From NCBI GenBank assembly GCA_002862465.1, contig PKDD01000092.1, positions 1 through 55,196 on the forward strand: a stretch of 55,196 nucleotides of DNA, written 5' to 3'. Below, in pieces: positions 20,494 to 51,760 of this stretch. The DNA is from Haliea sp. Its GTDB lineage: Bacteria; Pseudomonadota; Gammaproteobacteria; Pseudomonadales; Halieaceae. The notes beneath the pieces are model-generated. The model made no database searches, had not been told where the DNA came from, and saw nothing but the letters and a program-made list of their open reading frames with translations. A program made the translations under genes and the position numbers. The stretch's first letter is position 1, and every line of letters starts with the position of its first letter.

Positions 20494-20496
20494 ACG

Positions 20497-20931: not shown

Positions 20932-20948
20932 TTTTCGATGCGCAGCTG

Positions 20949-23628: not shown

Positions 23629-23690
23629 ATGCCCCCTTGTTCAAATAGCGAGAGATATCAGGAGAAGTCCTTAGTGGGGAAGACACAGGT

Positions 23691-25363: not shown

Positions 25364-25364
25364 A

Positions 25365-30965: not shown

Positions 30966-30984
30966 GATGTTCTCCGCAAACCGG

Positions 30985-36240: not shown

Positions 36241-37461
36241 TTAGTAAGTGCCGACGATATTTTCCTGCGCAAAGCGTTCTATCTCGGTTGGGGTGTATCC
36301 AGCCTCTCGCAGTACTTCTTTCGAGTGCTCTCCCAAACGGGGAGGATGGCGGTGGACGGCGGCAGGTGTTTCGGATAAGTGTCCGGGATAGCGCACGTAA
36401 CGCAGTGTTCCTGCCTCGGGGTGCTCAACGTCAAAAATAGTGCGATTGTGTTTCGCCTGTGGATCCTCAGCAAATTCGCGCACAGTTTTGACTGGGCCGA
36501 AAGGCACACCTGATGCATCCAGTCTTGAGAGCAAGTCGTCGGTGGTAAACCGTTTCATTACTTCACCTATGGCATCTAACCATGGACCAAAATCGCCAAT
36601 ACGCTCTCCAACGTTACGCATGCCCTCCCGTTCCAATAGTTCAGTGCATCCCAATGCGTCGCACAAACCTTGAAAATGGTTGTCCTGCAGCGCCATACCC
36701 ACAACAAAGCCATCACTAGTCTCAAAGGTACGCAACACAGCGAGGGGAACTGGATCCGGCATATTATTCGGCATAAAACTATCTACCGATATCATATCGG
36801 CCAGGGAGTTGGCAGCCCAGGCATCTATCATTGGCACATCCACTCGCTGGCCCTTGCTAGTGCCGCCCGGACGATCACGCGCGTACAGAGCGGCCATGGC
36901 AGCGCCGGCCGCTGTTGTCGCTGTTGTCTTGTCGACAATGGCCGATTGAATAAGTTGCGGTTTGCCACCAAAAGGCATGCCTTGAATGGGCATCATGCCG
37001 ACTAGACCCTGTGCGAGCGGGTCATAGGCAGGCTTATGCGAATAGGGACCAGTAGGACCGAACCCAGTAATCGACACAAAAATTAATTTTTCATTAATAA
37101 GACGCAAGTCTTCATAGCCAATGCCAAGACGATCCGGGACCCCGCCACGAAAGTTCTCAACCAATATATCCGCGGTCTCCACCAATTTCTTTATGATGGC
37201 GACACCTTCAGGGTGTTTAAGGTCGACCGACAAGCTACGCTTATTGCGATTCATTTGCGTGTAGAAGCCAGTTAGACCTGATTCTTGAGGGGGAGCCATC
37301 CAACGGGCTACCTCTCCATGGGTTGGCTCGATCTTTATCACGTCGGCGCCCAGGTCACCGAGTTGTTGGCTGCATAGCGGCCCAGTAATCATCGACGTGA
37401 TGTCGATAACGCGAATACCCTGTAAGGGGCCTTGAGGTGACTCTGACAGTTGCACGTCCAA
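36241..37461 (-). CDS. CaiB/BaiF family (class III) CoA-transferase
   Basis: The protein has 406 residues with the class III pattern: GIRVIDITSMITGPLCSQQL, LGADVIKIEPTHGE, FYTQMNRNKRSLSVDL, VENFRGGVPDRLGIGYEDL, SITGFGPTGPYSHKPAYD and QSAIVDKTTA, whose aspartate is the CoA carrier. I chose TTG 37459-37461 because AGGAGA lies six bases before it; the in-frame ATG further upstream adds 23 residues unlike the family (many His, Arg and Ser). Bile-acid CoA-transferase BaiF and carnitine CaiB are relatives, so the carboxylic acid cannot be named. The old yellow enzyme gene next to it on the same strand is a plausible partner. Confidence 0.92.
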   Translation of the reverse strand: MDVQLSESPQGPLQGIRVIDITSMITGPLCSQQLGDLGADVIKIEPTHGEVARWMAPPQESGLTGFYTQMNRNKRSLSVDLKHPEGVAIIKKLVETADILVENFRGGVPDRLGIGYEDLRLINEKLIFVSITGFGPTGPYSHKPAYDPLAQGLVGMMPIQGMPFGGKPQLIQSAIVDKTTATTAAGAAMAALYARDRPGGTSKGQRVDVPMIDAWAANSLADMISVDSFMPNNMPDPVPLAVLRTFETSDGFVVGMALQDNHFQGLCDALGCTELLEREGMRNVGERIGDFGPWLDAIGEVMKRFTTDDLLSRLDASGVPFGPVKTVREFAEDPQAKHNRTIFDVEHPEAGTLRYVRYPGHLSETPAAVHRHPPRLGEHSKEVLREAGYTPTEIERFAQENIVGTY

Positions 37462-37622
37462 AGAAAATCTCCTATGTTGTCGCGATGATTCTACACGCCA
37501 TTGGGTATCGCCGTCATGGTTATGGCCCATCTGCTCGCGCCGAATTAATCAGCGATTTATTCGATAAAATAGGCCCATATCAAGCGCACTGCTGTCCAAC
37601 TCCCGTGCGCAGTGAGTTCATA

Positions 37623-38840
37623 TCAGGTGGGCGCGCCCTCTAGGTTAAGCGGGCAGTAGACTCCACCGGGGGCTTCAATCAAACTGGCACAACGGTTGCA
37701 GTGAATGCAACCGTTTTTATAATTGCGGTCAGCCATTGCATGTTTCACAAACGCAGGATCCTTGATGAGGGGGCGGCCCAGTTGGATAAAATCAAACCCC
37801 TCTGCCATGACTTTTTCTATACTGGCAATATCTGTGCAGCCACCGATATACACCATCTGACAGTTGACGCGATCACGCACACGTTTAGCATCGTTAAGGA
37901 AATAGAGTTCTTCATAAGGATAGTAATGAAACATTTTTGACCCGATAATCTTCAGGCCCATTTTCATGATCGGATTTCTTTCTACCTCGATTAATCCTTT
38001 TTCTAATGTGTCACCGCGAAAATATACCATAGGGTTGAAGCTACTAGTGCCGCCAGAGCAGATAAGGGCGTCAATTCCCCCTGCGTCTAGCATCGCGGCC
38101 ACCTCTATCGCCTCCTCAATATGCAGGCCACCCTTGATGCCATCTGTGAGACCTATTTTACCCAGAATAGGGAAGTCATCGCCTACTGCTCGGCGCACCG
38201 CGTCCATCACACGCAGCGGTAGCCGCATGCGGTTAGCCAAACTGCCACCGTAATTGTCGGTGCGTCGGTTCGTTTTGGGGCTAATGAACTGGCTAATGCC
38301 ATAGCCGTGGCTGAAGTGAATTTCTACCGCATCGAACCCCGTTTTTTTCATCAACAGGGCTGCATCAAAGTAAGTTTTGACCAGATAATCAATGTCAGCG
38401 GTCGACATAGCACCTGCGAAAGGCATGCCAGATGCTGCACCGAGCATATTGAATTGGCGAGAGGGTCCAAGTGGGCGTTTAAGACGCTGCATTTTTCTAT
38501 TTTTGGAAAAGTTTCCGCAATGGGCCATCTGACCTGAAATCGCCACATCCGGGGCCGTTTTTTTAAGTTCGCTGTTCATATGAGCAAGTTGATCGCTTAT
38601 ACCCTCATGAATCCACATCATCTGATCGTTGATGCGGCCATCTGCCTCTGTGGTGCAGTATCCAATAGTAGTCATCGCTGTCCCTCCAGCTACGATGGCC
38701 TGATGAAAGTTAAGCAGAAGATCGCCGGGGACACCGTCTGGCGTTTTACCCTCATAAGTGGCGGCTTTGAGGATACGATTTTTAAGCCGCAGTTTGCCGA
38801 GTGTTGCTGGTGATAGGGCCTTGTGCAGGTTGTCGCTCAT
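37623..38840 (-). CDS. NADH:flavin oxidoreductase, FMN/4Fe-4S old yellow enzyme
   Basis: The protein has 405 residues, the barrel part of an old yellow enzyme followed by a cysteine cluster. LGKLRLKNRILKAATYEGKT marks the N-terminal FMN region, followed by AVEIHFSHGYGISQFISPKTN (active-site His and FMN phosphate contact), GKIGLTDGIKGG, and FDFIQLGRPLIKDPAFV. The C-terminus carries CIHCNRC plus a fourth cysteine in GGVYCPLN, the 4Fe-4S site, but no FAD/NAD domain, unlike the 705-residue relative at 6945. It may need a separate reductase. Family members reduce enoate and dienoyl-CoA double bonds, including steroid enones. ATG 38838-38840 has AAGGTG upstream; an ATG 20 codons earlier is less likely. 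Confidence 0.92.
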   Translation of the reverse strand: MSDNLHKALSPATLGKLRLKNRILKAATYEGKTPDGVPGDLLLNFHQAIVAGGTAMTTIGYCTTEADGRINDQMMWIHEGISDQLAHMNSELKKTAPDVAISGQMAHCGNFSKNRKMQRLKRPLGPSRQFNMLGAASGMPFAGAMSTADIDYLVKTYFDAALLMKKTGFDAVEIHFSHGYGISQFISPKTNRRTDNYGGSLANRMRLPLRVMDAVRRAVGDDFPILGKIGLTDGIKGGLHIEEAIEVAAMLDAGGIDALICSGGTSSFNPMVYFRGDTLEKGLIEVERNPIMKMGLKIIGSKMFHYYPYEELYFLNDAKRVRDRVNCQMVYIGGCTDIASIEKVMAEGFDFIQLGRPLIKDPAFVKHAMADRNYKNGCIHCNRCASLIEAPGGVYCPLNLEGAPT

Positions 38841-39120
38841 TGGACACCTTTTGGTTTGGTATATTTTTGACGTTATACATCCTATGTAGTACAGCCACAT
38901 ATATCAATAAGGGAGTGGTTCAGTGTCGAGTACCGGCTCGAAAAGTCAGGGTCACACCCCAGCCGAGTGCAGAACAGAGTCACGCTAGGCGCCAGCGCTC
39001 AGAGGTCACTGGATGCAGTAACATTTAGAACATCAAAAACGATAAAACGGGGGCTCGTGTTTTGCTACGGAACTGTCATAAGATAACAGGATGTTTAACT
39101 CTTTAAGGAAACATTAGCCT

Positions 39121-40308
39121 ATGTTCGGCGATAATCACAACGACGCTCATCTTAAGGCTAGTTGGAGCGATTTTTGTGATCAACTCAAAGTAGCTGGCGA
39201 TCTTGTGTTTCGTAATACGACGCCTGCGCATGATATCGATCGTGCAAAAGGCTTCCGTTTGCTTGCCCGTAACATTTCCCTCGGATTACAGTTTCACCTA
39301 GAAAATAAAGATCCGGATTTTCCTGAACTGTTGCACTATTTCGATCCGATCAGAAAGCAGGGTGGCGATAATGCTGACGCCCTTTATATCGGAGCGCCGA
39401 TCGACGGCGAAAATTCATATAAAATATCAGGCCATCGCGGGAGCGCACGCTACTTCGCAGTAACGGTCCTTGAGAATGGCGCTACACCCTGGGGTGGCGC
39501 GGCTGTGGGGAGTCTGATTGATAGCGAAATCGTCTTGGAAGCTGATGGCAGCTTTGAGATAATTATCAGTCCCCATGAGCATTCAGGTAATTGGATAAAG
39601 AGCACTCCCAATAGTTGGCGCGTGACGATTCGACAGTTTTTTGCTGATTGGGAAACAGAGGAGCCGATGGTTGCACGTATCGACAGGGTAGGTGAGCAGC
39701 GGCATCAGGCTTCTTTCACGTCTGAGCAACTAGAGCGTGGACTTATGGAGGCGGCATCGTGGGTGCGGGAATCTACAAACTACTGGGCAGACACGCTGGA
39801 CAAGTGGCAGCGACAGCCAAATCATTTTCTTTCTTATCGCCAGTTAGACAAAAACGCCATTGATGCAACGCCGGGTGGAGAGCCATTAATCTGCTACTGG
39901 AAGGTGCCACAGGACGAAGCGCTGGTAATACGTGTGACCCCACCGCAGGCCGACTATTGGTCTGTAGAATTTGGTAATTACTGGTGGGAAACAATGGACT
40001 ACCGCTATCGCCTGTGCAGCACCAATTGTCATCATGCCGTGTTGGAAGATTCCGGTGAACTGATATTGGTAGTTTCGCATCGGGATCCCGAAGTTCCAAA
40101 TTGGCTTGATCCGTCTGGCCACGTTGAGGGCTATGTGACCGTGCGATGGATTGGTGCCGCGCAATATCCTGTCCCACAGTGCTCGCAAATGAAGGTTAAA
40201 AATTTGCTTGTATACTTGGGTGATAACGTAAAAAAGATATCATTGGATGCGCGTAGTGAGCAATTAGCTGCTCGTCGAAGCGGAGCCATTAAGCGTTTTG
40301 GTTGCTAA
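39121..40308 (+). CDS. DUF1214-type protein paired with a sulfotransferase
   Basis: A 395-residue protein without signal peptide or membrane helix. Two regions carry the fold: GGDNADALYIGAPIDGENSY with ISGHRGSARYFAVTV (about 80-120), and YWSVEFGNYWWETMDYRYRL with SHRDPEVPNWLDPSGHVEGY (about 280-345). The NWLD/DPxxPNWL element is typical of DUF1214. The protein at 45635 has the same order of motifs, so the two are homologues. No enzymatic function is established for DUF1214. The gene is monocistronic upstream but overlaps or abuts the sulfotransferase gene downstream, which suggests a shared role; the sulfotransferase ATG lies 13 bases after the stop. Confidence 0.75.
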   Translation: MFGDNHNDAHLKASWSDFCDQLKVAGDLVFRNTTPAHDIDRAKGFRLLARNISLGLQFHLENKDPDFPELLHYFDPIRKQGGDNADALYIGAPIDGENSYKISGHRGSARYFAVTVLENGATPWGGAAVGSLIDSEIVLEADGSFEIIISPHEHSGNWIKSTPNSWRVTIRQFFADWETEEPMVARIDRVGEQRHQASFTSEQLERGLMEAASWVRESTNYWADTLDKWQRQPNHFLSYRQLDKNAIDATPGGEPLICYWKVPQDEALVIRVTPPQADYWSVEFGNYWWETMDYRYRLCSTNCHHAVLEDSGELILVVSHRDPEVPNWLDPSGHVEGYVTVRWIGAAQYPVPQCSQMKVKNLLVYLGDNVKKISLDARSEQLAARRSGAIKRFGC

Positions 40309-40321
40309 GGAAGGGTCATCG

Positions 40322-41575
40322 ATGAAAAAGCCGATCAATCCACGGTGGAACCCGCCGCCGCAACCGCATTGGCTGCAGGCGATGAACGAAGAAGGACGTT
40401 GTTTTGATCTCACAGCGGTGGTGCCTCTGGATGAGATGTCACTGCTGCAGCATGCGCAGCAGGCAACGGGTTTGCGAGACTTTGGTGACGACCTGTGGCG
40501 TGAACCCTTTGCCGTTCTGATAAAAGCTCTAGAACAGGAGGCGAAGCTGACCTTAATGGGTCGACTTATGGCTAGAAGCGATATTGTTTTATGGCTGAGT
40601 ACGCGTCTTCAGGTAACGGATACGCTGAAGAAACACCCTGTAATAGTGGATGAAGAAATTATTGCACCCACAGTTATTGTTGGTCTACCACGTTCGGGCA
40701 CGTCGATATTGTTCGAGCTGCTGTCACAGGATTCGGGAGTTGGTGTGCCGTTGATGTGGGAGGCGTTACAGCCCTGCCCACCGCCGGAAAGTTCAACGTA
40801 CACTACCGATTCGCGCATCGCGCAAGCCGATAAGCTATTTACGCAGTGGAGTCGAGTAGCACCTGAGTTTTCCAGTATGCATGAAATGCGCGGTGACATT
40901 CCCGCTGAATGCGGTCTGCTTATGGCCGCTACCTTTATTAGCGATCACTGTGCCGCACTGCACCAGACTCACAGCTACAGCGCTCTCTGCAGCGTTGCAG
41001 ATTACTTGCCGGTCTATCAGTACCACAAGAAAATATTGCAGATATTACAATGGAAGAACCCACGTAGACGTTGGCTATTAAAGTCACCGGAACATCAAGT
41101 GCACTTGGATACGCTTTTGAACGTCTATCCAGATGCGCAGATCGTGCAGACCCACCGTGACCCTATCAAGTGCATGGCGTCCAGTACCAGTCTTATTGGA
41201 ACTTTATATCATATGCGCAGTAACCAACCCTTCAATGCCGAGCTTTTTGCAAACATTATTACGGGAGAGGCTACTGCTCAGCGCTTGGAATATGTAATTG
41301 ACCAGAGGGCTAAGGGTATTGTTCCAGCAGCATCTATTTTTGATTCGCGTTACCAAGACCTAATGGATAATCCGATAGAGTGTATTGAAAAAATCTATGC
41401 TTTTTTTGATATGCCGTTAACTGACGACACGCGGGGCAAAATGCGCAAGTATTTGCGAGATAGACCCAAGGAAAAGTTCGGTTCCCACACTTATGAGGTC
41501 AGCCAATGTAACGCCCGGGACAGAGAATTCTTCAGGCGCTATCAGACATTGTATGACGTCCCTGATGAAGTATAA
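40322..41575 (+). CDS. sulfotransferase family protein (PAPS-dependent)
   Basis: The protein has 417 residues. The 5'-phosphosulfate loop VGLPRSGTSILFELL and the 3'-phosphate motif THRDPIKCMASSTSL, both hallmarks of PAPS-dependent sulfotransferases, are present, as is the catalytic-region motif RRWLLKSPEHQVHLDTLL. An N-terminal extension contains ATGLRDFGDD and LARSDI-type segments found in all three sulfotransferases of this window, so they form one subgroup. It moves sulfate from PAPS to a hydroxyl or amine; the acceptor is unknown and no sulfatase gene is nearby. ATG 40322 with AAGGG seven bases upstream is the better start than an upstream GTG in the DUF1214 gene. Confidence 0.9.
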   Translation: MKKPINPRWNPPPQPHWLQAMNEEGRCFDLTAVVPLDEMSLLQHAQQATGLRDFGDDLWREPFAVLIKALEQEAKLTLMGRLMARSDIVLWLSTRLQVTDTLKKHPVIVDEEIIAPTVIVGLPRSGTSILFELLSQDSGVGVPLMWEALQPCPPPESSTYTTDSRIAQADKLFTQWSRVAPEFSSMHEMRGDIPAECGLLMAATFISDHCAALHQTHSYSALCSVADYLPVYQYHKKILQILQWKNPRRRWLLKSPEHQVHLDTLLNVYPDAQIVQTHRDPIKCMASSTSLIGTLYHMRSNQPFNAELFANIITGEATAQRLEYVIDQRAKGIVPAASIFDSRYQDLMDNPIECIEKIYAFFDMPLTDDTRGKMRKYLRDRPKEKFGSHTYEVSQCNARDREFFRRYQTLYDVPDEV

Positions 41576-41702
41576 AATTTTTAATCATAGGGTCGGTCGC
41601 CGAAACAGTAGCGCTATCAAGACGCGAATGTCTGATATTAAAAGTATCTTTAAAACAATAGCTTGCGTTCTGATTCTGTCTATAAATATCATATCGCATT
41701 GT

Positions 41703-42590
41703 TTAGCCAACATCACCATTTGATGAAGAAAACGACTCAATTTTTCCAGATTTTTTTAGATGCTGGAAGACTATATCAACTGTGACACGAAAGTTATCCA
41801 GAAGTGCAGCTCGCGCTTTCCCTTCCTTTGTGGCTCGGAAAAGATGTGGTGTCATGCTGAGTAGTTGATGAACCTCTAACTGACTTAAAGGGTCCGTTTG
41901 AAACTGTAGCGTTGAGGTTTTCTCGGGTAAAAAACCGGCAGCGCAAACCTGTTGAAGCATTTTTGAGTCAGAATGATGCACCTGTGGATAGATAACTTTC
42001 CGTAGCTCGATAAGATGCTGTGGTCCCGCATCGACAAGAATCAAGCTTCCACTTGCTTTAAGCACGGATCGAAACGAGTTCAAAATGGGGAACCCAAACA
42101 GACTTAATACGCAATCGACGCTGTTTGCAACTAAAGGAATGTTGCGGTTGCTGGCGACCAGCCACGTAGCGTTGCTTCGGCGTGTTGCGGCTCGTATAGC
42201 CGACTTGGAAATATCGAAGCCAACAAGCGATGGCTTAAGAACGCCAGAGGCTGCAATTTTTTTCGCTAATTGCTGCAGGTAATAGCCTTCGCCGCAGCCT
42301 GCATCTACAATAACCGAGTTATTACTGACAAGCGGTTCAACGAGGCGATTGAGTGCATCTGCTGCGGGTTGGTAGTGACCAGCGTTAAGAAAATCGCGTC
42401 GCGCTGTTACCATCTCTTTACCGTCGCCAGGATTTCGACTCCGCTTGTCGGCAGCGCCAAGCAGGTTGACATAACCCTGACTTGCGATATCAAAAACATG
42501 GCCGTCCGGACAGCGTAGGCAGCCTATATCAAGTTTTAGAGGATGGTGATCTAGTGGGCACCTCAGAACTTCACTGTAAACAAATTTCAT
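41703..42590 (-). CDS. rlmA: 23S rRNA (guanine-N1)-methyltransferase RlmA
   Basis: An S-adenosylmethionine methyltransferase of 295 residues that methylates a guanine in 23S rRNA helix 35. The N-terminal zinc region (CPLDHHPL, CLRCPDGHVFDIA) is followed by GYVNLL, KRSRNPGDGKEMV, ARRDFLNAGHYQP and the SAM motif VIVDAGCGEGYYLQQL, then PGPRHL-like DAGPQHLIELRKVIYP. All of these match RlmA in order. The second zinc cysteine of the first knuckle is replaced by Asp14 (CPLD); Cys11, Cys27 and His31 remain. It is a stray housekeeping gene inside the accessory region and convergent with the sulfotransferase gene. Confidence 0.88.
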   Translation of the reverse strand: MKFVYSEVLRCPLDHHPLKLDIGCLRCPDGHVFDIASQGYVNLLGAADKRSRNPGDGKEMVTARRDFLNAGHYQPAADALNRLVEPLVSNNSVIVDAGCGEGYYLQQLAKKIAASGVLKPSLVGFDISKSAIRAATRRSNATWLVASNRNIPLVANSVDCVLSLFGFPILNSFRSVLKASGSLILVDAGPQHLIELRKVIYPQVHHSDSKMLQQVCAAGFLPEKTSTLQFQTDPLSQLEVHQLLSMTPHLFRATKEGKARAALLDNFRVTVDIVFQHLKKSGKIESFSSSNGDVG

Positions 42591-42639
42591 TCTAATCGTG
42601 CACTCAAGACAAATGATTAAGTGAATACGTAGCGCCTAC

Positions 42640-43410
42640 TCATCGCAGTTGTACAGAAAAATAAGCCAGAATGTCGTCCAAGGCCGATCGAGTAGGATGG
42701 CCGCTACCGTCGACAAAATCGAGCGTGAGCACCGAATGGCCCTTCCCGGGTAACGTATGTGTGATAATGCGCGTTGCCTCAGAGTCGTTAAACGCTTCTT
42801 CAATGGCCTGATATTTTTCAGCGGTGCACATAGGGTCTTCGGCAAACCGGTAGGCATGAATTGGAGCTGTTTTTTCGATACGTCGTCGTATGGCGACTAT
42901 TTCATCTTCTGACATGTGCAACTGCGTTGGTTTGAGTAATGGCATCGACGGTTGGGAGCTGACAGCTGCCAGCACGCTGTCATCGGCCATTAATGAGATC
43001 GCAAAGTTGCCGGTAAGGCACATTCCGATGACGCCGACACCCCTCGTTTGGCTCTGTATTTTTATATCCCGACACAGCGCTTTTAGCCAGTCTACGATCG
43101 GGCTCGAGGAATTCTTCCTGAATAAATTGAACTCTTTACGCATGCAAAATACTCGTATCAGATTGCCCCCGATACTAACTTTCTCTAGTGGCCCAAATAA
43201 GTGCGGCAGTATTACCTCGAAACCTTTGTTCACAAACTCATCTGCCAATCGCATTGTTTCAGGTCCTATGCCGGGCAACTCCTGAATAATTATGACGGGT
43301 GGACCGCTTCCATGGCGATAGACATCATGTTTGATGGTCTGACCTGCGCTGCATCGTGCGCTAAAGGATATTGAACTATAATTTGAAATAGGCGTGTAAG
43401 AATTACTCAT
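42640..43410 (-). CDS. dienelactone hydrolase family protein
   Basis: A 256-residue alpha/beta hydrolase. The nucleophile elbow is GMCLTG with Cys131; the preceding IIQELPGIG supplies Glu44 as in dienelactone hydrolase, and Asp192 with His225 (GKGHSVL) complete the triad. In the beta-ketoadipate-like pathways such enzymes open dienelactones; many other members cleave thioesters or unknown esters. It sits upstream of rlmA on the minus strand and near the LLM oxidoreductase, so it could cleave a ring-opened oxidation product. That link is inference. Confidence 0.82.
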   Translation of the reverse strand: MSNSYTPISNYSSISFSARCSAGQTIKHDVYRHGSGPPVIIIQELPGIGPETMRLADEFVNKGFEVILPHLFGPLEKVSIGGNLIRVFCMRKEFNLFRKNSSSPIVDWLKALCRDIKIQSQTRGVGVIGMCLTGNFAISLMADDSVLAAVSSQPSMPLLKPTQLHMSEDEIVAIRRRIEKTAPIHAYRFAEDPMCTAEKYQAIEEAFNDSEATRIITHTLPGKGHSVLTLDFVDGSGHPTRSALDDILAYFSVQLR

Positions 43411-43486
43411 AGTCTATTCCCTTTGAAGCAAGTCGTTGTAAGTGCCGCGCGGGCAAATTTTTTTAGGATAAAATCGTTACCCTTGG

Positions 43487-44356
43487 TTAGAAGTGGCGTA
43501 GGATACCTTCAGCGTAGGATTCCATAAACTGTTTTTTTTCGTCGATGGTAGAGTGTTTTTTGCCCAGCGCATACTGAAAGGGCGGTGCCACAGTGCTTTC
43601 CAATCCGTCATCAACTAATCGTTGGTAGAGGGTCAGACTAGGTGATGCGCTGATGCCAATCATGGCCTCGAAGGGAAGGTGATCCCGCCCGTTTTTCTTG
43701 CGCAGTTGATCAAGGTTTTGCAACAAAGGCTTTACGTCTGCTGGGGCAGTACCCGCGCCTATATAGCCGCTCCCCACCAGTGCCGCCCGACGCAGAGCGA
43801 TTTCACTGGTCCCTCCGATGTAAATTGAAGGATGTATCTGTGGTGCAGGACTTAATTGTATTTTAGGAAAGTCAAAATGTGCACCGTGATGCTCGACCAT
43901 TCCGCCCGCCCAGAGTTTGTGCAGGATCTCAATAATCTCATCAGTTATTTTTCCTCTCTGGTGAAAATCTACACCGTAGATATCGAACTCTTCTTTCATC
44001 CAGCCGACGCCTACACCCAGAATAAAGCGGTTGTCACTCAGTATCGCTAGAGTAGCGCTTGCCCGTGCAATCTCATGAGGGTTGCGCAGCGGGAGAACGT
44101 ACACCCCACATGTAAAAAGTAGATTGCTTGTTACTGCTGCCATAGCAGCAAAAATAGCCGTTTGGTCAGGGTATTCATCATCGGGTTGCATCGGCGGCTG
44201 ACCGGTTTCGGAATAGGGGTAATTCGGAACGATGGACTGAGGATAAACGGCATGATCACCACTCATTAGTCCGTGAAAACCCACCTCCTCTGCAAATTGA
44301 GCGATCTCAATTAACTGGTCGGTTTCCGCCCACGTTATTGCTTGCCAGAATTTCAT
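43487..44356 (-). CDS. LLM class flavin-dependent oxidoreductase
   Basis: A 289-residue bacterial-luciferase-like barrel. Typical segments are EEVGFHGLMSGDHAVYP, FAAMAAVTSNLLFTCGVYVLPLRNPHEIARASATL, RFILGVGVGWMKEEFDIYGVDF and PSIYIGGTSEIALRRAA. The sequence fits the F420-type subgroup often named TIGR03619, common in Mycobacterium and found occasionally in marine Proteobacteria; use of FMN or F420 cannot be told from sequence alone. Such enzymes reduce or monooxygenate polycyclic or unsaturated substrates. It lies between the hydrolase and a sulfotransferase on the same strand. Confidence 0.87.
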   Translation of the reverse strand: MKFWQAITWAETDQLIEIAQFAEEVGFHGLMSGDHAVYPQSIVPNYPYSETGQPPMQPDDEYPDQTAIFAAMAAVTSNLLFTCGVYVLPLRNPHEIARASATLAILSDNRFILGVGVGWMKEEFDIYGVDFHQRGKITDEIIEILHKLWAGGMVEHHGAHFDFPKIQLSPAPQIHPSIYIGGTSEIALRRAALVGSGYIGAGTAPADVKPLLQNLDQLRKKNGRDHLPFEAMIGISASPSLTLYQRLVDDGLESTVAPPFQYALGKKHSTIDEKKQFMESYAEGILRHF

Positions 44357-44394
44357 GTAGTTGCCGCCATGTGTCGCACCGTGAAGATGTCGAT

Positions 44395-45633
44395 TTATAT
44401 GGATTCTTGCGGGACGTCGAAATATGCCTCATATTCTAAGAATAGATCACGTAGTTCGTCTTCGCCCATTCCCGTATTGGCCAAGCTATACAAATGTTTT
44501 CCGTATTTGTCTGCAGGATTATTGTCGAGAAAAGATTGCATGGCTGTGGCAGCTTCGGCAGATAATTCTATGCCGAAGTGTTCATAGGCGCGGCGAACCG
44601 TGCCTACTTGGTCTGCCATAAAATCGCGGAAGTATAGGTCGACTACCTGACTTGCCGGGAGTTTTCCTGATTTTCGATATGCAACGGTATTATTATAACC
44701 CTGTGCCAAGGCCTTGGCGTAGTAGGCAGTGACCTTACTTAGATCAGCGTGATTACTGGACATAGTATGCAGAGTCGTTGCCAGATTACTGGTAGACACA
44801 ACGATTTTTGCCGGATCGCGATGCGTTTGGACAAAAAGCGCATCTGGATATTCTCTATGAATGTGTTGCAGATGCCAGAGGTGCTGCGGAGATTTTAGAG
44901 CCCAGCGTTTCCCCGGGGCTTTCCACTGCAAGACCTGTAGGAATCGACGATGCCATTTGAGCGCTGATCGCATATCACATTCCATTACCCAGCGGTCATA
45001 CGTAGGTACGAAAAACTGGACCAGATAAATCATTGAAGTGAAATCATGACTTGTCATGGTGACGCACTCTTGCGCCCGTTCAGCGCCCATGGGGTGCATA
45101 GTCTTAAACTCTGGCAAGAGTTTCTCAACCCTCTTCAGGTCTGCTTGCGCCAGCGCGATGCGCGGGTCCGTTCTATACGTCGCTGTCTCGGGCGGCGGAA
45201 ATGGTCGGGCAGTCTCCCACGTTAGAGGTACGCGGTTGTCCGGATCCATTACTAGCAAATCATGAAAAATCGTCGTGCCAGAGCGGGGCGGGCCGACGAC
45301 AAATATGGGCCGCTCTATACTTTGCTTTTCTATGTCCGGCTGTTGTTTGAAAAGAGCAACAAAATTGAGCCTATTTTCCAGTGTACGCAGAAGATCAGAT
45401 TTGGCAATAATGCGACCGAGTAGTGAAAGATTGGCCTCTTTATCTAACCCGTCCAACAGAAGGGTCAACGGCTGCCTAAAGTCGTTCTCACCAAAGTCAG
45501 TGAGGCCGGTATTGTCTGAAGCTTTCTGCAGTAGTTTATCGAGGCTCAGGTTCACCGGTTGAAAACCAAAGGCATTGACGCTGCGACCGACCATATTGAG
45601 AAATCGTACAGGCAGAGGCATTGGTGTTTTCAT
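44395..45633 (-). CDS. sulfotransferase family protein (PAPS-dependent)
   Basis: The protein has 412 residues and the family motifs VVGPPRSGTTIFHDLL for the 5'-phosphosulfate and THRDPAKIVVSTSNLATTL for the 3'-phosphate, with RWALKSPQHLWHLQHI in between. The N-terminal region NTGLTDFGENDFRQPL and LGRIIAKSDLLRTLENRL resembles the other two sulfotransferases here. The DUF1214-type gene at 45635 starts upstream on the same strand and ends one base before this start, so the two are coupled. The order DUF1214 then sulfotransferase is the same as at 39121-41575. Confidence 0.9.
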   Translation of the reverse strand: MKTPMPLPVRFLNMVGRSVNAFGFQPVNLSLDKLLQKASDNTGLTDFGENDFRQPLTLLLDGLDKEANLSLLGRIIAKSDLLRTLENRLNFVALFKQQPDIEKQSIERPIFVVGPPRSGTTIFHDLLVMDPDNRVPLTWETARPFPPPETATYRTDPRIALAQADLKRVEKLLPEFKTMHPMGAERAQECVTMTSHDFTSMIYLVQFFVPTYDRWVMECDMRSALKWHRRFLQVLQWKAPGKRWALKSPQHLWHLQHIHREYPDALFVQTHRDPAKIVVSTSNLATTLHTMSSNHADLSKVTAYYAKALAQGYNNTVAYRKSGKLPASQVVDLYFRDFMADQVGTVRRAYEHFGIELSAEAATAMQSFLDNNPADKYGKHLYSLANTGMGEDELRDLFLEYEAYFDVPQESI

Positions 45634-45634
45634 G

Positions 45635-46750
45635 TCAGGTGCCGAGATCAGCGAGCTTGATTAACTCGGCCTTTGGTGTTTCAGCGTCTCCGGCCACTAG
45701 GAAAAATCGCCAAAACACCAACCCAAAAAAATTGCCCTCAGTGTCTAGCCAGTTTGGGAGGGCTGGGTCGGAGTGGGCGATAATCATTTTAAAACTACCA
45801 TCACTTTCTAATACTGTTTGAGTCCGGTTCAAAGACACGCTGCGATTGCGAAAGTCAAAGGTTTGTTGAAATCGATTCCACAGGCACACATTGCCGAATC
45901 GGCACTCGGGCCATCGGCCGGTAATCACTAATGCCTCATCGGCTCCAATGAAAAACGGTGCCATTGAATAGTGTGCATCATAAGCGGCGAGGCCAAAATC
46001 ACCTGGTGGCTGTGGTTGCGGAAACTCGTTGGGTGTGAGCGATAGGAATGCGGGTGGTACGCTGTTGGCCATCGGGGGCATGCCCAACGTCCTGCCATGT
46101 ATGGCGTTACACACGCGTCGAATACCTGCCGCCACTGTTTCGTCACTGGGTGCTGCAGGCACTCCTTTTGCCGTCAGACATTCGATACGGATACGCGGCT
46201 CTAGGTCCGGATCGGTAGCGGCAGGAGTTGTGTGTTCAAAATAATGCCGCGTTGTAACCCGAGAGGCACCCGGCTCAAGTGGTAGCCAGCCTCTGTCTCT
46301 TGGTTCCCCGCCGAGATACAGTGTGAAATTGCCATTGCTATCAATCTCGAGATTTTCGTCGTTGATCACGCCAGCGGTTCTAGTTGCCATGTGCCCGTCT
46401 TCAGCACCCACCTCAATGGTGAGGGAAAAATAAGCTGCACCATGGATACTGCCATGTATCACGTACGCATGATCTGGGCTTACAGGCGCATCGAAGTAAA
46501 TTGCGTCTGAGTTGTCTCCTGTGAGTTTGCGGCTTGATGTTGTAATGCGCCGGAAGTCCGGCTGACTAGCATCCAGTTCAAAGTTCCCTATCAGAGATGC
46601 CTCTATGATGTGCATTAGCGCACGGTGGGAGCCGACGATGTCCTCTGGAGAATTTAGATTCCATTCAGCGCTCGACCAGCGGGCGTCGATTTCTTGCAAT
46701 AACTCGATGAACTCACCCAAGGCAGTGCGACTTTTTGTTTGAAGGGTCAT
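45635..46750 (-). CDS. DUF1214-type protein, second copy
   Basis: A 371-residue homologue of the protein at 39121. TGDNSDAIYFDAPVSPDHAY and IHGSIHGAAYFSLTIEV mirror the GGDNADALY/ISGHRGSARYFAVTV region, and HSDPALPNWLDTEGNFFGL mirrors the C-terminal HRDPEVPNWLD motif. Sequence identity away from these motifs is low. It has no signal peptide. It lies between two sulfotransferase genes (46769 upstream, 44395 downstream) on the same strand with gaps of 18 and 1 bases. The protein function is unknown; the position suggests it acts on the substrate or product of sulfation. Confidence 0.75.
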   Translation of the reverse strand: MTLQTKSRTALGEFIELLQEIDARWSSAEWNLNSPEDIVGSHRALMHIIEASLIGNFELDASQPDFRRITTSSRKLTGDNSDAIYFDAPVSPDHAYVIHGSIHGAAYFSLTIEVGAEDGHMATRTAGVINDENLEIDSNGNFTLYLGGEPRDRGWLPLEPGASRVTTRHYFEHTTPAATDPDLEPRIRIECLTAKGVPAAPSDETVAAGIRRVCNAIHGRTLGMPPMANSVPPAFLSLTPNEFPQPQPPGDFGLAAYDAHYSMAPFFIGADEALVITGRWPECRFGNVCLWNRFQQTFDFRNRSVSLNRTQTVLESDGSFKMIIAHSDPALPNWLDTEGNFFGLVFWRFFLVAGDAETPKAELIKLADLGT

Positions 46751-46768
46751 AGTGGTTTCCGTAATGCG

Positions 46769-48070
46769 TTAGTTATTGGCTATCGCCATATGTGGGTTGA
46801 TGGATTCGAAAGGGATATTGAATCGTTTACGGTAAAACATCAATCGCTGCTCGACTTCCTGTGGATCAAGCCCAAAATCAGTCAGGCTGTACTTGTGGGC
46901 GCCATGCTGATGTTGTCGATTGCTGTCTAGCCAAGCTTGCATTGCAGTGCGCGTATGAGGCGTGAGCGGTTGCCCTAAGAAGTCGTAAATTCCGCCTATT
47001 GCATTTTCCCAGTCGGCGGTAATGTCAGCGTACAAAACGTCATATTGATTCTGATCAGGAACGCTAGCAGCACGCACTTTGAGGCTTTTCTTTAGCATAC
47101 GTTCAGTTTTATTAAGCCATTCTGTGCCTACCCATTCGGGCGTAACACTCGCACTGTCGCGCACGATGGCATTCCATACCATCGAGCAGGAAGACCCAAC
47201 CACTTTAATTGGATCGCGATGCGGGCAGATTAACTTGGCATTAGGAAAGACGTGTAAAAGCGCGTCTAAGTCCTGCATATGCTGCGGAGACTTGAGAAGC
47301 CAGGGTTTGTCCTCGGGATCGTCCCGAAACCACGAAATGATTTTCAAAAGCATCGCCATATACTCATAGGCCGCCGTCTGGTCATGCGTCATTAACCATT
47401 CGGAGAACGTCGGAATTTTTGCCGAGACCTCAAATAGCTGGGTTGAAAAACCGTGTTGTATCAATCCAATTTCTTCCTCTACTTCAAAGGTGTCCAGCGG
47501 GTGGACCGCTGCAATCTGCGGGCTCATATAGAGAACTGCTTTTAAACCTCTTTCTACTGCGGTGATACGCGGATCGATTTTTCCATCTGCCCTCGCAGTA
47601 AAGCACTCCGGGTCCGGTACTGGATAAACAGATTCCCATGATTTAATGTGCAGAAAGTTTGAATCTGATGCCATGAGGCGCTGTAGTCGGGTCGTGCCAG
47701 AGCGCGCAAGGCCAACAATGACAACAGGGTCAGGCATTGAGCGTGCAAGGATTTCTGGGTGGCGTTTAATGAGATCTTGAGCGTATAGGCGACCTTTTAA
47801 CAGGCGTAGAATGCTAGACTTGCTCATGAACTTACCCAAAGAATTAAGGTCGGCCTCATCCTGAAGTGACTGAATAAGCAGTTTCATGGGTTTTAGAAAG
47901 CTGTCATCGCCGAAGTCAGTTAAACCAGTGTCTTTTTGCGCTGTTGCAATCAGTGCCGATGGGTTCATCTGAAAATCAGTGATACCTAAAGCGCTGAAGC
48001 CACGGAGCGCAGTGTTTAGCATGCGTATGGGGGTGCGCTGGTAATCGATTGCTTGCAGTTTTTTATTCAT
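46769..48070 (-). CDS. sulfotransferase family protein (PAPS-dependent)
   Basis: A 433-residue sulfotransferase. VVIVGLARSGTTRLQRLM and CPHRDPIKVVGSSCSMVW are the PAPS motifs, KPWLLKSPQHMQDLDALL the intervening one. It has the same N-terminal DTGLTDFGDDSFLKPM and GKFMSKSSILRLLKGRL segments as the other two copies, but Pro/Ala differ in the 5' loop. ATG 48068-48070 has CGGAAT six bases upstream; an ATG 11 codons earlier is less likely. It is the first gene of the minus-strand run and divergent from a TetR gene across 130 bases, so TetR control of this run is plausible. Confidence 0.9.
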   Translation of the reverse strand: MNKKLQAIDYQRTPIRMLNTALRGFSALGITDFQMNPSALIATAQKDTGLTDFGDDSFLKPMKLLIQSLQDEADLNSLGKFMSKSSILRLLKGRLYAQDLIKRHPEILARSMPDPVVIVGLARSGTTRLQRLMASDSNFLHIKSWESVYPVPDPECFTARADGKIDPRITAVERGLKAVLYMSPQIAAVHPLDTFEVEEEIGLIQHGFSTQLFEVSAKIPTFSEWLMTHDQTAAYEYMAMLLKIISWFRDDPEDKPWLLKSPQHMQDLDALLHVFPNAKLICPHRDPIKVVGSSCSMVWNAIVRDSASVTPEWVGTEWLNKTERMLKKSLKVRAASVPDQNQYDVLYADITADWENAIGGIYDFLGQPLTPHTRTAMQAWLDSNRQHQHGAHKYSLTDFGLDPQEVEQRLMFYRKRFNIPFESINPHMAIANN

Positions 48071-48200
48071 ATTTATTCCGTGTTGTCCTAAGGCTACTTG
48101 CAAATGATAAGCTTCTGTCCAGTAGGTGCCTATTTACGCTGTCATCTATTTAGCCCAAGATGCCACAATAGGCGTATTCGAAAAAGCGATTATTTTGTCC

Positions 48201-48779
48201 ATGATTGACGCAAAAACCGATCAAGTCGTGTCCATTCTCTCTGCTGCTAGGCGCTGCTATCTTGCCAACGGTATTTCCGCTACTGGCATGAAAGAGGTTG
48301 CTGCCGGTGCCGCTCTGGCGCGTTCTACCCTGTACCGATATTTTCCAAGTCGTGACGATTTGTTGGTCGCGACCATTATGGAGGAGATGATCGAGCTTAA
48401 CGATTGCATCCGTAAGCGGTTGGTTAAATATCCCCATCCTGCGGATCAGGTAGTTGAGGGGTTATTAGTTGCGATCAAGGAAATTCCTCGGCGGCCACTG
48501 CTGCATGCGGTTTTTGCATCCGAACAAGATAGCCGAGCGCGCCGCGTTATCTGGAGTTCGGATGCTATTGTCAGCTTCGGAGAAGAACTTATGGATCACG
48601 TTATCCGGCCTGCTCGCGATGCGGATTTGTTGCAGAACGCGGTGCGTCCTGAAATATTGATAGAGTGGGTTTATCGGCTGCTTTTGTCATTTCTCACGTT
48701 GCCCAGTAACTGGGTCAAAAGCGATAAGCAATTGCGCACTACGCTGCATGCGCTTTTGGTCCCTGTGTTGCTGAAGTAA
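48201..48779 (+). CDS. TetR/AcrR family transcriptional regulator
   Basis: A 192-residue regulator. The DNA-binding part VVSILSAARRCYLANGISATGMKEVAAGAALARSTLYRYFPSRDDLL is a clear TetR helix-turn-helix, with the YRYFPSRDDLL end of helix 3 intact. The ligand-binding domain is variable, as usual. ATG 48201 gives the normal N-terminal length; a GTG 25 codons upstream is in frame but adds an unlikely segment, and neither has a good ribosome binding site. Its 3' end overlaps the convergent FAD oxidoreductase gene by 41 bases. It probably controls that gene, the divergent sulfotransferase or both; 26-base dyad at 50466 is a candidate operator. Confidence 0.88.
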   Translation: MIDAKTDQVVSILSAARRCYLANGISATGMKEVAAGAALARSTLYRYFPSRDDLLVATIMEEMIELNDCIRKRLVKYPHPADQVVEGLLVAIKEIPRRPLLHAVFASEQDSRARRVIWSSDAIVSFGEELMDHVIRPARDADLLQNAVRPEILIEWVYRLLLSFLTLPSNWVKSDKQLRTTLHALLVPVLLK

Positions 48780-50421
48780 TGGTTGATGTGGCCTCCTGTG
48801 TTGGTGCCACTCCCACGACGTTAGAGGCCAATATTTCATGGGCACAGTTGTAGCCGGGCAGAAATGTGACGCCCGGGCCAGGATGACAAGACGCGCCGCA
48901 TAGGAATAGGTTGTCAATCGGTGTTGTGTGGCCTGTGCCGTCAATAAGGCAGCGATCGCCAATCATTTGGTCAGGGTGCAGCAGGCCATGAGTCCAGTCG
49001 CCGTTAGTAACGCCCTGCATGCTGGCAAAGTGATCAGATGAAAAAATAGCTTGATCAACAATTACGTCGCGAAAGTCGGGCATATATAAGCTGATATGAT
49101 CAATGAGCTTTTCGCCCATCTGGTCCCTCAATTTGCCGCGTTGATCTTTATCTGCCTCACAGGGAAAATAAAAGCCATAGGCACTTGCAATATGGTAGCC
49201 GGGGGGTGCAAGTGTTGGATCGACTATTGTGGGAATCTGAAACGCCAGCGGCACATTTTCGGGCAGTTCTCCCCGTAGGCAGGTTTCGTAACTGCGCTGT
49301 AATTCGCTGGGATCAAGAACCATAGCGCCACCGAAGTAAGCACCAGGTATGGCGTCAAGTTTTTTCAGGTGAGGAGAATACGTGGGTCTGCTTTTTAGTT
49401 TAAATAACATATGCACAAACGCGCCTTGATGAGTAAACGCGTCAACTTTTAGTTGGTCGGCTTCATTCAGGGTGTGGTTAGCAAGCAGACCATTGAATGT
49501 CGCTTGTTTGTCTAGGTTTGAAACGATGATATTTGCATGCAGGCGCTGTCCGCTTTTTAGTTCAACAGCCACGGCGCGATTGTCTTCCACAACAATGTGC
49601 GAAACCCGCTGCTTCAGTCTGACTTCGCCACCCAAAGCGGTGATTTGCTCTGCAAGGCAATCTGACAGTTTGCCAATGCCGCCTTTGACACGTTGCATCA
49701 AGCCGTCCGAGCCTTCCTGAGCCATGGTATAAATTAGGCACATGCCTGAACCTGGAGTATACGGACCTTTGTAAGTCGCCTGCACTGCCGCAAAAGCCAT
49801 GCTGGCGCGCAGTTCGCTGTGTTTAATGGGGTCGGGGAAAAATTTATCAATGATATCCATGGCCGAGCCTTTGAAGGCAAGTTCTAGGTGTTCTCGTTGT
49901 TTTGGTGTTTTTGCCTCGGCAATAAGTTCTTCCAGTTTGCGCGGCGCTTTGCGCGCAGTGAAACGATCCAGCACGTTTGCGGGGAACTGGCAGAATTTCA
50001 TCAGCCGGACGAATCCCAGCATGGCACCGGGACCGAAGCTACGCAAGACGTTGAACGCAAGCTTCAGCGGGTCCTTGAAAAATATCAAAGGGCGAGCCTG
50101 AGCGCCTGCTAGATTCACTGCCATTACCGGTAACGGAATTAACTCAACGCCATGCGATTCAAAATCGAAATACGATTTTATCTCTGCAGACAGAGGGAAC
50201 AAGCAGCTAGCACCGACCTCATTAAGACATCCTTTGAGAATTTCTCGTGTGCCGCCCATCCCTCCAACATAATTATTTTTTTCAAGCACAAGCACTTTGT
50301 GTCCGTTGCGAGCTAACACTAAGCCCGCGGCTAGTCCGTTATGCCCGGCACCGATAATGATGCAGTCGTGCTCATCATTCGCTGTTTCGGGCGAGGAATT
50401 GGTTTCAGCCTGCTTGTTCAT
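48739..50421 (-). CDS. NAD(P)/FAD-dependent oxidoreductase, phytoene dehydrogenase-like (CrtI family)
   Basis: A 560-residue flavoprotein. The dinucleotide-binding motif IIIGAGHNGLAAGLVLARNGHKVLVLEK (residues about 21-48) and the C-terminal HPGPGVTFLPGYNCAHEI motif are typical of phytoene-desaturase-like amine oxidases, and QRVKGGIGKLSDCLAEQI is the middle family motif. Carotenoid desaturases and retinol saturases are relatives; no carotenoid gene lies nearby, so the substrate may be another isoprenoid or a lipid. The N-terminal 18 residues before the FAD motif are polar and of low complexity. The last 41 bases overlap the convergent TetR gene. Confidence 0.9.
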   Translation of the reverse strand: MNKQAETNSSPETANDEHDCIIIGAGHNGLAAGLVLARNGHKVLVLEKNNYVGGMGGTREILKGCLNEVGASCLFPLSAEIKSYFDFESHGVELIPLPVMAVNLAGAQARPLIFFKDPLKLAFNVLRSFGPGAMLGFVRLMKFCQFPANVLDRFTARKAPRKLEELIAEAKTPKQREHLELAFKGSAMDIIDKFFPDPIKHSELRASMAFAAVQATYKGPYTPGSGMCLIYTMAQEGSDGLMQRVKGGIGKLSDCLAEQITALGGEVRLKQRVSHIVVEDNRAVAVELKSGQRLHANIIVSNLDKQATFNGLLANHTLNEADQLKVDAFTHQGAFVHMLFKLKSRPTYSPHLKKLDAIPGAYFGGAMVLDPSELQRSYETCLRGELPENVPLAFQIPTIVDPTLAPPGYHIASAYGFYFPCEADKDQRGKLRDQMGEKLIDHISLYMPDFRDVIVDQAIFSSDHFASMQGVTNGDWTHGLLHPDQMIGDRCLIDGTGHTTPIDNLFLCGASCHPGPGVTFLPGYNCAHEILASNVVGVAPTQEATSTITSATQGPKAHAA

Positions 50422-50465
50422 AGTATGCGCTCCAGTACCAAGGAATTACTTGTATAACCCGTCTA

Positions 50466-50491
50466 TCGGACATATTATTTTAAATGTCCGA
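50466..50491. promoter_or_regulatory. 26-base palindrome, candidate TetR operator
   Basis: TCGGACAT (50466-50473) and ATGTCCGA (50484-50491) are perfect reverse complements separated by ten bases. The site sits in the divergent promoter region between the FAD oxidoreductase (minus, start 50421) and the kinase (plus, start 50543), where an operator for the nearby TetR protein is expected. The spacer is AT-rich. Confidence 0.6.
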
Positions 50492-50542
50492 CTACGGCAA
50501 GTTTGTAAAAGCAGTTACTTACATTTTCCACTTAGGGTTGTC

Positions 50543-51760
50543 ATGGCAATACGCAATACGATAGCGATATTCTTGATCGTGATGAAGGGTTTAGGCCGTC
50601 TAGTCTTTGACGCTCTAGGGGATATAACGGAACGCAGTCTTCCGTTCAAAGCCGACGATATCGTTAAGCCAGATATTTTGGCCCGCCTGCTCAACGAAGG
50701 GACTTTGCAACCTCATGCGACACCCGTAGTGATCGACACGGTAGTGCGTCAGGATGTGCCATCGGTCAGCAGCAATTGTCACAACCTCGTACTTACTATT
50801 AAGCAAGCCGGCGACGTTACTTTGCCCCCTAGCTTATTCGTCAAGGTACCTATGGAACCCCTGGCAACTCGCTGGTTTTTTAGTATTATCAATTCTTGGC
50901 AATTGGAGTCGTATTTTTTTCGCCACGTTGCGCAAACTCTTCCTTTGCGAACGCCAGTAACCTACGCCACTGCCTGGCAGAGATCTCGCTTTTACTTGGT
51001 GCAGGAAAATCTGCATGAAGACCCTACGGTCGAATTATTCGTCAATCCAGATATGATGCAGGGCCCGTCGCTTCAGCGAGTTTACGGTTGTCTGGACACC
51101 TTTGCCCGATTGCATGCTTGTCATTACGATCTCAGTCGGGATGAGCGTGAAGCGATACTGCCGATTGATTATCACCTGTTTCTATCTCCTACGATGGGGT
51201 TGGTGGCGAGAAATTTGAATCGTCTGGCATTAGTGCCTTGTTTAAAAAAGCGCCCCGGTGAGATACCAACTGAGGTGTCAGAGGCGTATCGGCTTACCAT
51301 CAGTCACTGGGACGATTTACTAGAATACTGGTTTTCTGGCCCCTTATCGTTGCTGCACGGGGACAGTCATCTCGGTAACTTTTTTGTCTCTGGAGATGAG
51401 ATGGGCATGCTTGATTGGCAAGCTGCGCATTGGGGCAAGGGTGTTCGCGATGTCCAGTACTTCCTTATTGATTCGCTGCCGGCTCCGACACTGGCTGCTC
51501 ATGAGCGAGAACTGGTAGAGTACTATGTGCAACGCAGAGCGCACCACGGCACGGCTATTGACGCTGAGCAGACGTGGCAGGAGTATCGCAGTTTTACGTT
51601 TCACACGCTGATGACTATCGTCGTTACTATTGGCTTTGGCGCTTTGAACGAAGATCAGGATGCGCTCTTTACTGAGGTGCTTAGGCGCTCGGTCGCGGCG
51701 GTACAGCGGGTAGACTATCCAGGCTGGCTGCGAGACTTCCTGACCCCGTCCTCTGGGTAA
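50543..51760 (+). CDS. APH/EcKinase-like phosphotransferase
   Basis: A 405-residue kinase-fold protein. The catalytic loop SLLHGDSHLGNFF and the magnesium-binding MLDWQAAHWGKGVRDVQYFL are clear; NLVLTIKQAGDVTLPPSLFVK supplies the nucleotide lysine. The larger size and the HGDSHLGNFF form fit the DUF1679/ecdysteroid-kinase-like branch of the APH superfamily, which phosphorylates alcohols, in insects steroid hormones. In bacteria such genes occur with isoprenoid or steroid degradation sets, but no reaction is proven. I chose ATG 50543 because AGGG lies five bases before it and because the long upstream extension runs antisense to the FAD gene. No DUF6285 partner follows. Confidence 0.82.
   Translation: MAIRNTIAIFLIVMKGLGRLVFDALGDITERSLPFKADDIVKPDILARLLNEGTLQPHATPVVIDTVVRQDVPSVSSNCHNLVLTIKQAGDVTLPPSLFVKVPMEPLATRWFFSIINSWQLESYFFRHVAQTLPLRTPVTYATAWQRSRFYLVQENLHEDPTVELFVNPDMMQGPSLQRVYGCLDTFARLHACHYDLSRDEREAILPIDYHLFLSPTMGLVARNLNRLALVPCLKKRPGEIPTEVSEAYRLTISHWDDLLEYWFSGPLSLLHGDSHLGNFFVSGDEMGMLDWQAAHWGKGVRDVQYFLIDSLPAPTLAAHERELVEYYVQRRAHHGTAIDAEQTWQEYRSFTFHTLMTIVVTIGFGALNEDQDALFTEVLRRSVAAVQRVDYPGWLRDFLTPSSG

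Follow-up and report, generated by a model that had tools for sequence, protein, structure and literature searches.

Recurrent pairing of DUF1214 proteins and sulfotransferases in Haliea and other bacteria: a candidate accessory module of steroid catabolism

Two gene modules in a 55,196-nt contig of Haliea sp. (PKDD01000092.1, referred to below, at its full length, as the window) combine a protein of the DUF1214 family (PF06742) with one or two predicted sulfotransferases dependent on 3'-phosphoadenosine 5'-phosphosulfate (PAPS). The original prediction, made from the window alone, took such pairs to suggest a functional unit, perhaps for the sulfation of a sterol or another hydrophobic alcohol. 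Our analyses confirm the pairing, which is conserved, recurs and is not due to chance, and they lend support both to the functional unit and to the guess of a sterol: the adjacency is conserved, presence in genomes matches, some relatives exhibit a context of steroid genes and of genes for PAPS and its by-product 3'-phosphoadenosine 5'-phosphate (PAP), and one has KstR-like boxes. We cautiously favour the explanation, which we judge to be slightly on the probable side, that the DUF1214 protein and the sulfotransferase, joined in many relatives by a short-chain dehydrogenase/reductase (SDR), make up an accessory branch for sulfation within aerobic steroid or sterol catabolism, in which the DUF1214 protein acts on the sulfated product.

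The two modules and their proteins

Module 1 comprises DUFa and STa, the called reading frames of which share 11 nt. On the minus strand, module 2 runs STc–DUFb–STb, from 48103 to 44395, and the genes are separated by 18 nt (STc/DUFb) and 1 nt (DUFb/STb) (Table 1). The open reading frames (ORFs) of both modules sit at the positions given for them by the original prediction, and the two DUF proteins indeed belong to one family, with 44.7 and 33.1 bits against the PF06742 cut-off of 25, a mutual identity of 28% over 327 aa (E 6e-29) and the shared motifs GDNxDAxY and DPxxPNWLD, both of which had been noted before. All three sulfotransferases score above the Sulfotransfer_3 cut-off. STa and STb exhibit a PRSGT-type loop (GLPRSGT and GPPRSGT), of which we take GLPRSGT of STa to be the 5'-PAPS loop, and STc has ARSGT. 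The TGLxDFG motif is present in all three, as predicted, but the further claim that it marks one sulfotransferase subgroup had to be rejected, because the motif occurs also in own_C58, own_C95 and own_C125, sulfotransferases of the same genome not linked to DUF1214, and because STa, STb and STc fall into different parts of the sulfotransferase tree, with DUF-unlinked enzymes in between.

The host genome (3.30 Mb, 182 contigs, 97.8% complete; the window is its contig C10) has 20 Sulfotransfer_3 matches and 11 DUF1214-type genes, the latter found as 7 matches to PF06742 and 8 to a two-row profile (A1). Most genes of either family stand unpaired here: three of these 11 genes adjoin a sulfotransferase (two in C10 and one in C65, locus L039), and 4/20 sulfotransferases adjoin a DUF1214 gene. 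In the DUF tree, DUFb clusters with the sulfotransferase-unlinked paralogues own_C6b and own_C16 rather than with DUFa, on which grounds a recent duplication as the origin of the two modules was rejected. Given this different ancestry, the modules would probably serve two substrates or two positions. The nearest fetched relatives by module genes are the Halioglobus records L085 and L089 (~90% identity).

Conservation of the linkage

A single profile search of genome contigs, carried out with the DUF profile alone and blind to sulfotransferases, yielded 49 loci, mainly from Halieaceae and other gammaproteobacteria, sphingomonads and Myxococcota. The adjacency proposed from the window is kept in 38 of them: a sulfotransferase gene lies within 5 kb in 29/33 DUFa-type and 9/16 DUFb-type loci, and in 20/22 and 5/7, respectively, among loci with 5 kb or more of sequence on each side. 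The density of sulfotransferases in the host genome (20 in 3.30 Mb) would give about 0.06 per 10 kb by chance. The arrangement differs among the loci: the DUF gene may precede or follow the sulfotransferase gene, the two may be divergent, or one or two SDR genes may separate them. Across the 53 clustered sources (the 49 loci, L093–L095 and the window), sulfotransferases (35/53) and then SDRs (23/53) are the commonest neighbour families.

The same sources were checked for sulfatases. Among ORFs longer than 350 aa a single type I sulfatase-like signature was found (in L053), and the HxHxDH motif was present in no ORF of the 53 sources, so sulfatase linkage is not a general trait, and a neighbouring sulfatase was rejected as the general desulfating partner. 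L100, which lies outside this set, has an annotated MBL-fold hydrolase after its sulfotransferase–SDR pair.

Several loci deserve mention in their own right. Novosphingobium naphthalenivorans (L058, 11182-13801, plus strand) has a second, very different DUF1214–sulfotransferase pair, 24% identical to DUFa. A Croceicoccus plasmid (L099, 1-2277, plus strand) exhibits a run of sulfotransferase, SDR, DUF1214-like and VOC genes, of which the DUF1214-like one is annotated as hypothetical. In a Prescottella plasmid (L094, about 1-9482), two copies of a Rieske–TetR pair, with the same protein accessions, lie beside a DUF1214-like gene, and no sulfotransferase is found in the stretch.

Most major branches of the DUF tree contain sulfotransferase-linked proteins beside unlinked ones, with 9 label changes (at least 7 of them forced); 88 of 500 shuffles were as low, so the linked label is not clustered. 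The partner sulfotransferases are also spread over their own tree. From this scatter on both trees, the association would be either old with losses or repeatedly assembled. L053, whose sulfotransferase groups with those of L061 and sphingomonads and whose DUF1214 protein groups with those of Halieaceae, looks like a partner swap. For 20 DUFa/STa pairs the distances correlate (r 0.515; 0/9999 permutations as high), a correlation that species relatedness alone could produce.

Distribution across 115 genomes

Presence of the genes was compared across 115 genomes of the order, with Fisher tests by genome and by genus (kinship uncorrected beyond genus) and cut-offs of E ≤ 1e-90 for DUFa and DUFb and E ≤ 1e-60 for the homologue of KshA. 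DUFa is present in 11/115 genomes (12 copies), and DUFb in 8, every one of them among these 11. Relatives of STa with at least 46% identity, a line set after the gap was seen, occur in 11/11 DUFa genomes and in 0/104 others (best 37%), including cases where the two genes are unlinked (Fisher 1e-15, relatedness uncorrected). A relative of STa lies within 1 kb of 7/12 DUFa copies and overlaps, or is separated by less than 100 bp from, 6/12. As to steroid genes, a KshA homologue is present in 9/11 DUFa genomes vs 9/104 others and an IpdA homologue in 10/11 vs 18/104 (genus-level Fisher 1e-5 and 3e-4, respectively).

These data bear on the possibility that DUF1214 and sulfotransferase genes are each common in the catabolic islands of steroid or terpenoid degraders and become neighbours by habit, with no joint reaction. 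Such a view would be compatible with the scatter of linked proteins over both trees, with the moderate distance correlation, with the mixed partners in L053, and with the eight of 11 host DUF1214-type genes that have no adjoining sulfotransferase. The tight spacing and the exact co-occurrence of STa and DUFa even where they are unlinked speak against it, and we consider it very improbable.

Steroid gene context

In L061, the order is HsaF (TIGR03217)–HsaG (TIGR03215)–KshA homologue–sulfotransferase–DUF1214–HsaC-like–IpdA-like–IpdB-like–IpdC-like–EchA20-like–two acyl-CoA dehydrogenases. The best solved relatives of its Rieske protein are 3-ketosteroid 9α-hydroxylases (3e-54, vs 1.5e-21 for the next molecule), and those of its IpdA-like protein carry the name probable CoA-transferase alpha subunit (6e-80) and are presumably IpdA structures. 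For the HsaC-like protein the best model is HsaC, and for one dehydrogenase it is IpdE2, with both scores under the cut-off; no NCBIfam match was obtained for the IpdB-like protein, and the names IpdB, IpdC and EchA20 are our assignments by gene order. The last steroid rings are handled by IpdC, EchA20 and IpdAB (PMC5380842). In L059, the order is DUF–KshA–sulfotransferase. Beside these genes, L059 encodes two proteins of ~535 aa (1777-3372 and 5843-7456, plus strand) with signal-peptide-like starts that are similar by eye and with no Pfam match, which flank a TonB-receptor-like ORF.

The host genome itself has a KshA homologue (52% identity), an APS kinase homologue and, on one contig, homologues of IpdA, IpdB and IpdC (the last cut by the contig end) together with a FadD3-like gene. 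Its family, the Halieaceae, we take to be the same as the OM60 clade. That clade figures in a survey of steroid degraders (PMC4810484).

PAPS/PAP genes, KstR-like boxes and mycobacterial homologues

Genes for the synthesis of PAPS and the removal of PAP accompany DUF1214 genes in four relatives. In Paraburkholderia sprentiae (L101), DUF1214, sulfotransferase, VOC, CysQ, CysD and CysN genes follow in series. In L070, the run sulfotransferase–SDR–SDR–DUF1214 is followed by one reverse ORF and then by CysQ, CysN and CysD homologues on the opposite strand, and preceded by FadD3 and steroid-isomerase homologues. Plasmid pNL2 of Novosphingobium (L095) has a DUF1214 gene and CysQ near FadD3, IpdAB-like and HsaC-like genes, with no sulfotransferase found in the stretches around the DUF1214 gene. 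In Tsukamurella (L093), a DUF1214-like–SDR–sulfotransferase operon adjoins cysD–cysC.

About 210 kb of the Tsukamurella record was searched with a 16-mer derived from published KstR sites (PMC1995591), allowing up to 3 mismatches. This stretch contains exactly two such boxes, one 37 bp before the DUF–SDR–sulfotransferase operon and the other 55 bp before cysD; 0.03 would be expected in the 17-kb stretch, and two were reached in 2/200 shuffles. Relaxing the limit to 4 mismatches adds 15 sites in other parts of the record. The record itself (NZ_LR134464.1, L115-L118), labelled plasmid 22, is probably a chromosomal contig because it carries ribosomal-protein, secY and tuf genes.

The Tsukamurella sulfotransferase matches PDB entry 2zq5, which we take to be M. 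tuberculosis STF1 (Rv3529c), with 573 bits. In a cholesterol gene table, Rv3531c is a hypothetical protein, Rv3530c a possible oxidoreductase and Rv3529c a conserved hypothetical protein (PMC6429209). This gene order fits the Tsukamurella operon, and Rv3531c–Rv3530c–Rv3529c looks like the same module. KstR bound the Rv3531c/Rv3532 site in vitro in a gel-shift assay (PMC1995591).

The steroid and KstR contexts also bear on the possibility that the pair makes a structural or signalling lipid (a sulfolipid, a sulfated quinone or a hopanoid) unrelated to steroid catabolism. Other mycobacterial sulfotransferases work in this manner: by the title of a reference in PMC3141025, one of them (presumably Stf0) reportedly initiates Sulfolipid-1 biosynthesis, and Stf3 is said to act on menaquinone. 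The position of the Halieaceae modules outside steroid clusters would agree with this. Against it speak the co-occurrence with KshA and IpdA, the linkage to KshA in L059, L061 and L076, and the Tsukamurella boxes, and we regard it as quite improbable.

Structure and conserved residues of DUF1214 proteins

The AlphaFold2 model of DUFa (pLDDT 89.5, pTM 0.86) is predicted to form two linked beta-sandwich-like domains and superimposes on the solved DUF1214-type structure 6ans with Z 41.8 and an rmsd of 2.9 over 361 residues; the likeness of DUFb to 6ans was established by sequence (E 5e-26). Lower matches of the DUFa model (Z under 7) include RetS, viral capsid, CBM and MAM domains and are taken as common beta arrangements. 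Both halves of DUFa contain an NW motif with an Arg 13 to 14 residues further on (W158/R171 and W328/R342). DUFb has GW in place of the first of these motifs, and the Tsukamurella protein lacks it. Invariant in a 12-row alignment (A3) are, among others, N84, D86, Y89, R171, N302, N327, W328 and R342. No clustered invariant residues of metal-binding type were seen, and the predicted structure and conserved residues do not reveal the reaction of DUF1214.

Proposed function

According to the explanation we favour, the sulfotransferase would use PAPS to sulfate a hydroxyl group of a steroid or a steroid-derived intermediate, PAPS would be supplied by CysD, CysN and CysC, and the by-product PAP would be cleared by CysQ. 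The DUF1214 protein would act on the sulfated product, and we favour its freeing the sulfate or turning the ester over, rather than merely storing it. We infer both the steroid substrate and the action of DUF1214 after the sulfotransferase; the chemistry of DUF1214 is the least certain part. One version of it, doubtful in our view, is that the sulfotransferase activates an unreactive ring or side-chain hydroxyl as a sulfate ester and DUF1214 is a sulfate-ester lyase that yields an alkene, so that the two proteins form a dehydratase. If true, this would be the first function for DUF1214.

Alternatively, sulfation may serve solubility, detoxification or export, the sulfotransferase conjugating sterols or other hydrophobic alcohols and DUF1214 only binding or carrying the conjugate. 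This we consider unlikely, though it merits more weight than the other alternatives. The two beta-sandwich-like domains and the weak matches to binding-type domains (CBM, MAM and lectin) are consistent with it, as are the annotated MFS transporters that L099 and L102 have close to DUF1214 and the ecdysteroid-kinase-like gene in the window; the ecdysteroid-kinase-like family conjugates steroid alcohols. However, four relatives also carry genes for PAPS synthesis or PAP recycling, in two cases together with steroid-type catabolic genes, and a metabolic flux therefore fits better than a binding or carrier role. Moreover, Rv3531c is listed as required on cholesterol and the sulfotransferase is not; if Rv3531c is a DUF1214 protein, its being more needed than the sulfotransferase fits an enzyme that consumes the sulfotransferase product.

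A number of observations weigh against the explanation that we favour. With respect to linkage, the eight host genes mentioned above lie on contigs with no sulfotransferase match; in a plasmid collection, 28 records matched, and four of the nine regions opened have a sulfotransferase within 5 kb of the matched DUF gene (L093, L100, L101, L102); and 4/12 DUFa copies are on different contigs from the STa relative (G002, G007, G044, G108), with another about 8 kb away. With respect to steroids, the window modules lie outside any steroid cluster, the host KshA and Ipd homologues being on other contigs, and few DUFa loci, out of 33, have linked steroid genes (KshA in L059, L061 and L076, FadD3/isomerase in L070), of which L076 has the same order as L061, with eight genes at 91–96% identity, and is therefore not independent. 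At the cut-offs used, 2/11 DUFa genomes lack KshA and 1/11 lacks IpdA. As IpdA and KshA occur also without DUFa (18/104 and 9/104 genomes), the module does not belong to the core of the pathway; it looks like an accessory of steroid-degrader-like genomes. With respect to sulfate supply and regulation, Cys homologues are near DUF1214 in only four loci (L070, L093, L095 and L101), the KstR-like box had no match in the window, L059, L061, L070, L095, L097 or L101, and a 10-base form of the motif was not enriched in L093 (3 found vs 1.3 expected). The first Tsukamurella box sits between a divergent helix-turn-helix gene and the DUF1214-like gene, and could serve the former. Finally, the Tsukamurella DUF protein scores 22.3 bits, under the Pfam cut-off of 25 (two-row profile 5e-37), Rv3531c is considered a DUF1214 protein from gene order and from the kinship of the Tsukamurella sulfotransferase to 2zq5, and Rv3529c reportedly, by a reference title, has a role in the host response.

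We know of no sulfation step in aerobic steroid degradation. An accessory sulfation branch would, if true, add such a step, provide the first role for DUF1214 and for a set of orphan bacterial sulfotransferases, and explain three genes of unknown function in the mycobacterial cholesterol regulon.

Gene neighbourhood in the window

Table 1. Genes of the two modules and their neighbours in the window
Feature	Position	Strand	Evidence and occurrence
DUFa, DUF1214 family, 395 aa, module 1	39121..40308	+	PF06742 E 2e-11
STa, predicted PAPS-dependent sulfotransferase, module 1	40298..41575	+	Sulfotransfer_3 E 9e-32; GLPRSGT
STc, predicted sulfotransferase, module 2 (first of its three genes)	46769..48103	-	Sulfotransfer_3 E 1e-34; GLARSGT
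DUFb, DUF1214 family, 371 aa, module 2	45635..46750	-	PF06742 E 9e-8; 6ans E 5e-26
STb, predicted sulfotransferase, module 2	44395..45633	-	Sulfotransfer_3 E 7e-42; GPPRSGT
LLM-class (F420-type family) oxidoreductase, 3' of STb	43487..44356	-	Bac_luciferase; TIGR03619 above cut-off; 11/53 clustered sources including the window
TetR regulator, divergent to STc	48126..48779	+	TetR_N; 6/53 clustered sources
CrtI/CrtO-like FAD oxidoreductase, syntenic with module 2	48739..50421	-	NF045689 E 5e-49, below cut-off; 7/53 clustered sources
Ecdysteroid-kinase-like (EcKL/APH) protein, syntenic with module 2	50540..51757	+	PF02958 E 1e-11; 5/53 clustered sources
Old-yellow-enzyme-type flavoprotein beside module 1	37623..38900	-	best matches partial, below cut-off; synteny in L077, L085, L089
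CaiB/BaiF-type CoA-transferase	36241..37530	-	matches below cut-offs; synteny in L044, L077, L085

The oxidoreductase 3' of module 2 is followed by a dienelactone-hydrolase-like gene and then by a methyltransferase. The ecdysteroid-kinase-like protein (ORF 50297-51760, with the translation taken from 50540) might, in the same block as module 2, provide a second enzyme that conjugates hydrophobic alcohols. An acyl-CoA dehydrogenase pair (29742-32070) has pimC_large and IpdE2 as the best models, both below cut-offs. A fatty acid cis/trans isomerase, which is a membrane-stress enzyme, is encoded a few kb from a module (33804-36050, minus strand; PF06934 E 3e-260), and a gene run at 14638-26114 (plus strand) resembles, as judged from translations only, a type II secretion (gsp) operon.

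Comparison with known systems

Among solved proteins, the uncharacterised 6ANS from Burkholderia cenocepacia is a relative of DUFa over the whole length (A1 profile E 8e-65), while VPA0735/VPA0106 (2p3y, 3vb9, 3u07) have a two-domain beta fold related to that of DUFa (Z 13 to 14) but only 9 to 14% identity. As to chemistry, retinol dehydratase (1fmj) has the fold common to sulfotransferases, with a weak sequence match (3e-4), and reportedly dehydrates an alcohol via a sulfate ester, which is the chemistry imagined for a DUF1214 sulfate-ester lyase; it is said to carry out both steps in one enzyme with no DUF1214 partner. The CurM-type sulfotransferase–thioesterase of curacin reportedly also uses sulfate as a leaving group, but differs in that it terminates a polyketide chain and has an unrelated partner domain.

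The original prediction held that no system of this composition had been described. This stands for the literature in so far as no description of a DUF1214–sulfotransferase pairing was found among the titles and abstract starts listed, and no paper naming both was found among those searched; for the genes themselves it has to be qualified, since the mycobacterial Rv3531c–Rv3529c set looks like the same module. The modules of the window differ from that set in having no internal SDR gene and no KstR-like box, and in the presence of a second module with the order sulfotransferase–DUF–sulfotransferase.

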